Positions 2,563-5,214 of a DNA stretch of 64,000 bases are shown one piece after another. The notes beneath the pieces were generated by a model. The model had not been told where the DNA came from and did not search any database. It worked only from the letters and a program-made list of their open reading frames with translations. The DNA comes from Porticoccaceae bacterium (GTDB lineage: Bacteria > Pseudomonadota > Gammaproteobacteria > Pseudomonadales > Porticoccaceae), in NCBI GenBank assembly GCA_029238255.1, contig JAQWGK010000061.1, positions 1 through 64,000 of the forward strand. Direction: 5' to 3'. The stretch's first letter is position 1. Every line of letters begins with the position of its first letter. A program made the translations under genes and the position numbers.

Positions 2563-3342
2563 ATGATTGATAAGGTAGAGCAAACAGAGAAGGTAGTAGA
2601 CCTTAAGCCGACCGCGGCAGGGGATACGCCGACTCCGCGCAAAGGTATCTACCTGCTGCCCAATATACTCACCACCGGCGCTCTGTTTGGTGGTTTTTAC
2701 GCGGTACTCTCCGGTTTTAGTGGTCACTTTGAATTTGCTGCCATGGCTATTTTTGCGGCTATGATTTTTGATGGTCTGGATGGTCGCGTTGCACGGATGA
2801 CTAATACCCAGAGTGATTTTGGCGTTCAGTATGACAGTCTCTCGGATATGGTCTCCTTTGGTGTGGCGCCAGCGGTGGTTGCCTACGGCTGGGGTGTTAG
2901 CGATCTCGGCAAGCTGGGTCTGGCGGCAGTATTTGTCTATGCCTCCTGTGCGGCACTGCGTCTTGCGCGCTTTAATGTTCAAGCTGAAGTGGCCGATAAG
3001 AAAACCTTTACCGGTTTGCCTAGCCCTGTTGCGGCGGCACTGGTGGCAGGCTTTATCTGGTCTACCTATCAGATAGAAGGCTCGTTGGGGCTTTCGATAA
3101 CCGGTGCAATACTCACCGCCACGGCTGGCCTGTTAATGGTTTCCAATTTTAAGTATCCGAGCTTTAAAGAAGTTGATCTGCGCGGCAAGGTTCCCTTTAT
3201 TGTTATCCTGTCGATTGTGATGGGCTTTGTGGTGATTACCATTGATCCACCGCGTATTCTTTTTGCGCTGGCGCTGATCTTTAGTTTTTCTGCACCGGTA
3301 ATTTGGTTATGGAAAAAGTTAATGGTCAATAAGCCGAGCTGA
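2563..3342 (+). CDS. pssA: CDP-diacylglycerol--serine O-phosphatidyltransferase
   Basis: CDP-alcohol phosphotransferase motif DGLDGRVARMTNTQSDFGVQYDSLSDMVSFG. Confidence 0.93.
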   Translation: MIDKVEQTEKVVDLKPTAAGDTPTPRKGIYLLPNILTTGALFGGFYAVLSGFSGHFEFAAMAIFAAMIFDGLDGRVARMTNTQSDFGVQYDSLSDMVSFGVAPAVVAYGWGVSDLGKLGLAAVFVYASCAALRLARFNVQAEVADKKTFTGLPSPVAAALVAGFIWSTYQIEGSLGLSITGAILTATAGLLMVSNFKYPSFKEVDLRGKVPFIVILSIVMGFVVITIDPPRILFALALIFSFSAPVIWLWKKLMVNKPS

Positions 3343-3381
3343 TTTTAGCGCTTGGAAAAGTGCTAAAACTCTGTTTGAATA

Positions 3382-3519
3382 ATGACTATGAATAATCCAA
3401 CTCAAAATAATGTCGCTAATATCAGTCTTGGTACTGATATTTCTGCGCCTTTATTTTCTGGCTCTTTATTTACTGCCTCTTTATTTACTTTCTCTGGATT
3501 ACTTCTTCTCCTGCCCTGA
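3382..3519 (+). CDS. leuL: Putative leu operon leader peptide (45 aa: MTMNNPTQNNVANISLGTDISAPLFSGSLFTASLFTFSGLLLLLP)
   Basis: Short ORF below the track length cutoff, immediately upstream of leuA, ending TTA CTT CTT CTC CTG CCC TGA (five consecutive Leu codons). Confidence 0.75.
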   Translation: MTMNNPTQNNVANISLGTDISAPLFSGSLFTASLFTFSGLLLLLP

Positions 3520-3554
3520 GGGGCATCTATCGTTATACCTCATCCAAATTTTCG

Positions 3555-3575
3555 TTTATTGCCTTTGGCAATAAA
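3555..3575 (+). promoter_or_regulatory. Perfect 9-bp stem hairpin in the leuA leader (candidate attenuator element)
   Basis: TTTATTGCC TTT GGCAATAAA between the leader peptide stop and leuA. Confidence 0.6.
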
Positions 3576-3660
3576 ATTCTAGCCCCATCGTGGGTGAATC
3601 CGTTTTACAATGTGGGCTGTTAAAAAAAGAATACGGCTCCAATCAGGAATAGAAGAGACC

Positions 3661-5214
3661 ATGAATACCCAGTCTAAAGAAAAATTAGTTATTTTTGATA
3701 CCACCCTGCGCGACGGTGAACAGAGTCCCGGCGCATCAATGACCAAAGATGAAAAAGTGCGCATTGCTATCGCGCTGGAAAAACTCCGCGTCGACGTTAT
3801 CGAGGCCGGTTTTGCGATTTCCAGCCAGGGGGATTTTGAGGCTATACAGGCAATCGCCAACACCGTGACCGAAAGCCGTATTTGCAGCCTCTCGCGTGCA
3901 GTTAGAGGTGATATTGAACGCGCTGCAGAAGCCCTGCAGGGTGCCAATGCCGGTCGTATTCATACCTTTATCGCCACTTCTCCAATCCATATGAAACACA
4001 AGCTGCAAATGCAGCCGGACGAGGTTCTTGAGCAGGCAGTCGGGGCGGTAAAGATTGCCCGCGGCCTGATCGATGATGTTGAATTTTCTCTGGAAGATGC
4101 CAGCCGTACAGAATTTGAGTTTATGTGCCGAATTACCGAAGCGGTGATTAAGGCCGGTGCACGAACCATTAATCTGCCCGATACGGTCGGTTATTCCGAT
4201 CCCGGTGAATACGGTTCCATGGTCAAGCGTCTGTTAAATACAGTACCCAATGCCGATCAGGCGATCTTCTCGGTCCACTGTCACAATGACTTGGGTCTGG
4301 CGGTAGCCAACAGTCTCGCCGCTGTGCAGAACGGTGCGCGACAGGTTGAATGTACGATTAATGGTTTGGGTGAGCGAGCCGGCAACGCCTCTCTTGAAGA
4401 ACTGGTGATGGCAGTGCGCACACGCAAGGATGTGTTTCCGGTTGAAACCGATATAGACACGGTTCATATAGTGCCGACCTCACGTCTGGTCTCTGGTATT
4501 ACCGGATTCCCTGTGCAACCCAACAAGGCGATTGTCGGTGCCAATGCCTTTGCCCATGAGTCGGGCATTCATCAGGACGGTATTTTAAAATTCCGTGAGA
4601 CCTACGAAATTATGAAAGCCGAAGATGTTGGCTGGAGTACCAATAAGTTATCTCTGGGCAAGTTATCCGGCCGTGCGGCACTCTCGTCACGCCTTGACGA
4701 ACTGGGCATCAAATTTGATAGCAAAGAAGAATTTAACGCTGTGTTTGTGCGCTTTAAGGCACTGGCGGATAAGAAGCGTGAGATCTTTGACGAAGACTTG
4801 CAGGCGCTAGTTTCTGAAGCGCAGATGGGCACTGAAACTGATGCCCTGACACTGGTTGATCTTGAAGTTCTATCCAAGTCTGGACAGGCTCCGCAGGCAA
4901 AAATTGCTATCGCCTATCAGGGTAAGGAACACCGTGCCGAAGCCTCCGGTGATGGTGTTGTCGATGCAATCTTTAATGGGATTGAAAAGCTGGTGAGCAG
5001 CGAAACAACCTTACAGCTCTACTCGGTTAATGCAGTGACTGAAGGCACTGATTCTCAGGGTGGTGTTACTGTGCGTCTGGAGAAAGATGGGCGGATTATT
5101 AATGGCCAGGGTGCCGATACAGATATTTTGGTGGCCAGTGCTAAAGCCTATTTAAATGCGCTGACCCTAATGCGCAATCCCGGTCGTCTGCACCCCCAGT
5201 TGGGCGGTGTGTAA
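3661..5214 (+). CDS. leuA: 2-isopropylmalate synthase
   Basis: [28 protein letters not shown]..., long LeuA with C-terminal regulatory domain; start at ATG 3661. Confidence 0.96.

Follow-up and report, generated by a model that had tools for sequence, protein, structure and literature searches.

A conserved leucine-codon leader peptide upstream of leuA in the SAR92/Porticoccaceae group that may act by translational attenuation

The leuA gene in the 64,000-nucleotide stretch of Porticoccaceae DNA analysed here (the window) is preceded by a short leader reading frame that ends in a run of leucine codons, a proline codon and a stop codon enclosed in an RNA hairpin. The recurrence of this leader in the family and across the class strongly supports a leader peptide controlling leuA, which is what the initial annotation of this previously unannotated ORF had claimed. 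On the comparisons that follow, leucine-responsive control of leuA is very probable; that it is exercised by attenuating the translation of leuA is the reading that we favour, with less assurance. The leuA enzyme is probably made only when leucine runs short. The features that carry the argument, all on the forward strand, begin with these:

3352-3380, forward strand: predicted leader promoter TTGGAA-N17-TTGAAT, recognised from the TTGGCA-N17-TTGAAT that relatives have just before the leader start.
3388-3519, forward strand: leader ORF from its probable true start, MNNPTQNNVANISLGTDISAPLFSGSLFTASLFTFSGLLLLLP and then stop, on an mRNA that is probably leaderless; supported by a spacing between the -10 box and the ATG as in relatives and by the conserved frame, Leu run and stop.
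3499-3513, forward strand: the five putative regulatory Leu codons, TTA CTT CTT CTC CTG, which would double as an anti-Shine-Dalgarno sequence.
3661-5214, forward strand: leuA, 2-isopropylmalate synthase, the regulated gene, with full-length matches at 81-97% identity to LeuA of same-genus genomes.

The identities of its LeuA (97% to the nearest relative compared, 88% to an HTCC2207-labelled bin, L033, and 83-91% to other Porticoccaceae/SAR92 bins) point to assignment of the window to the SAR92/Porticoccaceae group; the same protein scores under the TIGR00970 LeuA family cut-off. With names taken from reading the translations, the genes run from ilvC through a phosphatase-like ORF, a pssA-like gene and the leader to leuA. 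Ten tandem copies of a 19 bp repeat (GCTTTTTATAGGGCTAAAG) occupy 2321-2516, between the phosphatase-like ORF (1463-2317) and the pssA-like gene.

Read directly, the sequence contains an ORF of 45 codons at 3382-3519, upstream of leuA, in which the Leu run is followed by Pro (CCC, 3514-3516) and TGA (3517-3519). The ending in five Leu codons, Pro and stop had been described exactly; frame, end and Leu run stand, and the start probably moves. ATG 3388 lies 7 nt past the -10 box, a spacing matching that in relatives, and ATG 3382 lies 1 nt past the same box; because the distance to this conserved box is as in relatives, translation of the leader probably starts at the second ATG, 3388, rather than at 3382. 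The extreme C-terminal position of the Leu run, taken at first for an oddity, is the norm for this leader type. Within the leader ORF a 15-bp repeat (3.5 copies, 3438-3489) runs in frame and encodes SLFTA/SLFTF; a near-identical sister, L003, has fewer copies than the window, so that leader length evolves through repeat change.

Loci of leuA were collected from 92 family genomes, from 80 named genome contigs and by two pattern scans of 369 genomes of the class, and a leader was scored where Leu codons, Pro and a stop follow in one frame upstream of leuA. Complete with Leu run, Pro, stop and hairpin, the leader precedes leuA in 73 of the 84 family loci whose upstream DNA is usable; the Leu run that the initial annotation proposed to look for is thus kept by relatives, and alternative RNA structures at leuA are predicted as well (see below), so that the leader withstands the refuting conditions which that annotation had set on relatives and on RNA structure. 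The same leader type was found, through leuA alone, at about 22 of 77 usable more distant named loci, a count in which a few entries duplicate family genomes and one (L092) is spurious. Its carriers include Nitrincola, Motiliproteus and bins of Moraxellaceae and Chromatiaceae; it was not found in the Pseudomonas loci examined, nor, L092 being spurious, in those of Marinobacter. The class-wide pattern scans yielded 58 further loci with the element before leuA; found via the hairpin itself, these are not independent evidence for the hairpin, and they do show the link to leuA. Among the control matches examined, in which TGG replaces the stop, none lay near leuA except for one match at a remote paralogue (L198); several stop-bearing matches also lie away from leuA, as chance hits would give. 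In the window's own genome (G000) the A-form pattern (CTGCCCTRRNGGGCA) has its sole match at the leuA leader locus, and three B-form strings lie elsewhere. That the leader is a chance ORF without function has in its favour the general commonness of short ORFs and nothing more; conservation of position, frame and sequence across 145 distinct elements refutes it, and we give it practically no credence.

The leader's promoter recurs in relatives too. Its boxes in the window are at 3352-3357 (-35) and 3375-3380 (-10); relatives have TTGGCA-N17-TTGAAT, or else TATATT or TATAGT as the -10 box, and the 122 strong promoters have TTGGCA as the -35 box in 73 cases and a spacer of 17 in 102. Transcription usually starts about 7 nt past the -10 box. 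Of 142 elements, 64 have an in-frame start at precisely 6 or 7 nt past the -10 hexamer and 74 have one at 6-9 nt, to be set against 3 of 284 for out-of-frame starts (two frames) at the 6-9 nt spacing; in others the AUG lies 20-45 nt downstream. Because the AUG sits where transcription normally starts, the window and about half of the elements probably have a leaderless leader mRNA. A palindrome (TTTTAGCGC-TTGGAAAA-GTGCTAAAA, 3343-3368) follows the pssA-like gene, whose terminator it could be, and overlaps the -35 box of the leader.

At the other end of the leader, the stop codon lies inside a structure that all distinct elements share:

3512-3525, forward strand: hairpin 1:2, UGCCC-UGAG-GGGCA, wrapping the leader stop codon; the stem has 4 bp or more in 145 of 145 distinct elements.

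The TGCCC-tgag-GGGCA said to overlap the stop codon is present as described. Over the 145 elements the hairpin occurs in the registers UGCCC-(UGAG)-GGGCA and CUGCC-(GUAA)-GGCAG, with swapped pairs: C-G (92) or G-C (53) at pair 3, and G-C (92) or U-A (52) at pair 4. Reading by eye, we find three relatives that have lost the stop and kept the hairpin (UGC in L133, UGU in L097, UGG in L125), their leaders reading on for several codons past the lost stop, and a fourth, L066, whose leader ends ..RPLL-stop, that has lost the terminal Pro and likewise kept the hairpin. Since the hairpin outlasts both kinds of loss, the RNA, and not the peptide alone, is under selection; selection on the peptide Pro as the main driver was rejected on the same four relatives. 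The retention of the hairpin in the three without a stop codon would also suit the view, proposed by Seliverstov and colleagues for the actinobacterial LEU element, that the structured leader is the binding site of a regulatory protein and the Leu ORF secondary, and the conserved stop-codon hairpin together with a candidate pseudoknot (see below) does resemble a recognition site. Against this stands the joint conservation, over the class, of Leu run, frame and AUG-promoter spacing, which argues for a leader that is translated and makes a protein-binding site a very improbable explanation.

What points to translation as the controlled step is the relation of the Leu codons to the start of leuA:

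3644-3660, forward strand: leuA Shine-Dalgarno region CAGGAATAGAAGAGACC, predicted partner of the Leu codon run (pairing probability 0.98).

In the window CUUCU (3502-3506) pairs with AGAAG (3651-3655) and UCCUG (3509-3513) with CAGGA (3644-3648). The Shine-Dalgarno core is predicted to be paired with the Leu run at 0.98, and its predicted probability of being unpaired rises from 0.01 in the free leader to 0.38 with the Leu run masked; over 97 representatives, masking the Leu run lifts mean predicted Shine-Dalgarno openness from 0.28 to 0.44 (Wilcoxon p=1e-9). Because pyrimidine-rich Leu codons and purine-rich Shine-Dalgarno regions pair somewhat anyway, each Leu run was compared, in the 97 representatives, against its own leuA start and against those of other genomes. 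The mean longest perfect complement is 4.91 nt for own and 4.40 nt for swapped starts (0 of 20,000 permutations; z=5.3), and four control stretches flanking the Leu run gave no significant own-versus-swapped difference in the same representatives. With swapping confined to 14 groups of similar LeuA the difference persists by complement length (p=0.001) and is borderline by duplex energy (p=0.05 at the strictest cut). Long perfect complements are formed from codons that differ between lineages (11 nt in L262, 9 in L140, 8 in L016, L036 and L223, 7-8 in L070 and L169); the L115, L105 and L236 lineages have no convincing one. The average effect is modest, with a pairing probability of 0.41 for own and 0.33 for swapped leaders, the latter still pairing to that extent because Leu codons are pyrimidine-rich.

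This matched complementarity, which like the leader, its conservation, the stop hairpin and the promoter-AUG spacing comes out of comparing sequences, allows a course of events to be proposed. The promoter would start the mRNA at the leader AUG or within about 1 nt of it, and a ribosome would read some 40 codons before reaching the Leu run, Pro and stop. Given ample leucyl-tRNA the ribosome would clear the Leu run and depart, after which the stop-codon hairpin or its downstream alternative partner would fold; the bare Leu codons would then mask the Shine-Dalgarno region of leuA and little LeuA would be made. With leucine short, the ribosome would stall on the Leu codons and cover the anti-Shine-Dalgarno sequence, and the site would be open for synthesis of LeuA. 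That control runs in this direction, and acts on translation and not on transcription, is what we infer; the translational scheme is favoured by the pairing between Leu codons and the Shine-Dalgarno region of leuA and by the absence of a terminator from the window, and it has a precedent in the base stem that Leu run and Shine-Dalgarno box form in the actinobacterial LEU element (PMC1262725).

The RNA between leader and leuA has further structure, which bears on the main rival to this scheme:

3520-3586, forward strand: alternative pairing 2:3, GGGGC (3520-3524) with GCCCC (3582-3586); the expected number of pairs when the free leader folds is about 5.5.
3555-3575, forward strand: hairpin P3, TTTATTGCC-ttt-GGCAATAAA; arms rewritten yet complementary in relatives, mean z -2.3 over 22 sequences.
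3582-3611, forward strand: CCCC..GGG dyad followed by CGTTTTACAAT (3601-3611) at a near-fixed distance; conserved in SAR92 relatives.
3614-3639, forward strand: hairpin P4, GGGCTGT..ACGGCTC, immediately ahead of the Shine-Dalgarno region of leuA; its mean z, -1.4, is weaker than that of P3.

Classical transcription attenuation would make 1:2, 2:3 (GGGGC:GCCCC) and 3:4 (CCCC:GGG then CGUUUU) mutually exclusive, with stalling on the Leu codons favouring 2:3 and blocking a weak terminator, 3:4. The segments are correct in order and complementarity, and the folding that had been suggested as a check does return alternatives: 1:2 versus 2:3, and the pairing of the Leu run with the Shine-Dalgarno region. 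The best predicted fold of the window takes 2:3 instead of the conserved 1:2 stop hairpin, a point against the translational scheme, and the CCCC of 2:3 is invariant in 19 aligned SAR92 sequences, so that no covariation signal is possible. Of 97 elements, 24 carry terminator-like sites, where shuffles give 5.2; some of these sites are a CCCC/GGGG dyad with GTTTT after it. Most of that excess, however, is the stop hairpin with pyrimidine-rich sequence after it in some relatives; without the 1:2 hairpin it is small (10 versus 4.65), and a general intrinsic terminator was rejected. In lineages with such pyrimidine-rich sequence the stop hairpin could also be where transcription pauses or terminates. 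The window itself has no terminator-like site and, between leader and leuA, no intrinsic terminator with a U-tract (weak candidates occur in some relatives); a U-tract is missing altogether from many distant members; and the 3:4 dyad shows neither pair covariation above control nor pair counts better than those of shuffles, so that as a conserved terminator it was rejected and survives only within this rival. Transcription attenuation would, moreover, leave unexplained why Leu runs are complementary to the Shine-Dalgarno regions of their own leuA, and we consider it unlikely.

The perfect TTTATTGCC/GGCAATAAA hairpin that had been noted before leuA, without a strong U-tract, is exact at 3555-3575. 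Compensatory changes in close SAR92 relatives (AAACGCAGT/GCTGCGTTT in L008, TCATTGCA/TGCAATGA in L027) support P3 as a real structure; no terminator follows it in the window. At the position of P4, which is less certain, most SAR92 relatives have GGAGCC..GGCTCC-like stems. The dyad with CGTTTTACAAT may be a weak terminator, a second promoter or an operator. CGTTTTACAAT is invariant in 22 SAR92 relatives, and the AT-rich sister lineages L036, L118, L037 and L122 have GCGTTCTACAATG-like blocks that GGGACA or AAGACA precedes by 17 nt; the site is possibly a second, unregulated leuA promoter.

Downstream of the leader stop, 28 distant elements (most of L237-L258, plus L060, L070, L076, L083, L204, L206, L215, L216, L223 and L224) have a second hairpin, CCUG[G/A]CGAGG, and then ACG[C/U]. 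Loops with A are followed by ACGU in 4 of 4 (the first ACG being taken as partner), loops with G by CGC in 22 of 24 and by CGU in 2 of 24. This association, with a Fisher p of 0.011 under an open search rule for a pattern noticed before testing, suggests a candidate 3-bp pseudoknot, GCG:CGC or ACG:CGU, and is offered as a lead; it is not seen in the window, which has the 2:3 pairing in its place.

Control of transcription might also be exerted through Rho, proposed for terminator-less actinobacterial cys leaders (PMC1262725): a C-rich, G-poor stretch past the leader stop would load the factor, and the position of the leader ribosome would gate access to it. G is indeed depleted directly past this hairpin at the stop (17.3% G, 26.9% C) by comparison with the last 60 nt before leuA, but the skew is mild, the logic under starvation is unclear, in that a stalled ribosome would leave the site exposed, and the Shine-Dalgarno complementarity again goes unexplained. 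Rho-dependent attenuation therefore strikes us as improbable, and translational attenuation is retained as the preferred reading.

Gammaproteobacterial attenuation in response to amino acids is taught as termination of transcription. If translational attenuation is the right reading for leuA in many other lineages of the class, the textbook mechanism is one of at least two solutions inside it, and the actinobacterial LEU element, left without a settled mechanism in 2005, acquires a second and testable home. That the Leu codons would serve two ends predicts that synonymous changes in them shift regulation, and it would account for the constrained choice of codons in the run. A broader proposal, which we hold tentatively and with more doubt than conviction, is that of a widespread gammaproteobacterial switch with leaderless Leu codons as both sensor and anti-Shine-Dalgarno sequence and the stop hairpin as release signal, homologous to the LEU element: an ancient translational attenuator coexisting with transcriptional ones of the E. 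coli type. No gammaproteobacterial report of this element turned up in the open-access literature searched; an earlier mention is possible, for example in Vitreschak 2004, reportedly the main survey of proteobacterial attenuators.

Among known systems, the leu attenuator of E. coli and Shewanella (leuL) likewise has a Leu-codon-rich leader peptide before leuA. It operates through an intrinsic terminator and an antiterminator, as described for the Shewanella leu operon (PMC2659441), whereas the window has no U-tract terminator, its Leu run lies at the extreme C-terminus and its leader mRNA is probably leaderless. The search for the Rfam Leu_leader family that the initial annotation had recommended gave no match: Rfam as a whole has none in 2800-4200 of the window even at E<=1, and none at the gathering threshold in eight related loci. 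With no Leu_leader match, no terminator in the window, and pairing of the Leu run with the Shine-Dalgarno region favoured instead, the E. coli leuL mechanism first suggested for this leader is not supported.

A leaderless leader peptide with consecutive codons for the amino acid that it senses is found in Sinorhizobium trpL (PMC7298713), which differs by its transcription terminator, and mycobacterial polycysteine leaderless ORFs control downstream translation (Canestrari 2020, as cited in PMC9031893). Both resemble the leuA leader in having the peptide start at the mRNA 5' end (here predicted) and a codon run; amino acids, genes and RNA structures are other.

The nearest relative appears to be the LEU element rather than E. 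coli leuL. Described before leuA in Actinobacteria, this element has a Leu-run leader, a base stem of Leu run and Shine-Dalgarno box, a pseudoknot and no Rho-independent terminator (Seliverstov et al. 2005, PMC1262725), and the S. lividans leuA leader LeuL1 has a leaderless transcript (PMC8079986). The Leu-run leader and the base stem recur here, the stem not convincingly in every lineage, and the reported pseudoknot has a candidate counterpart in the 28 elements; the phylum is another, and here Pro and stop directly follow the run, inside the hairpin (LeuL1 is MRFGLLLLSCRGEGL). The authors of the LEU element doubted that its leader is translated because published Streptomyces leuA leader mutants, as cited there, did not behave as in classical attenuation (PMC1262725), a result that also speaks against the scheme favoured here. 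If one sequence serves both uses, codon mutations alter the lid too, and this may explain the ambiguous Streptomyces results.
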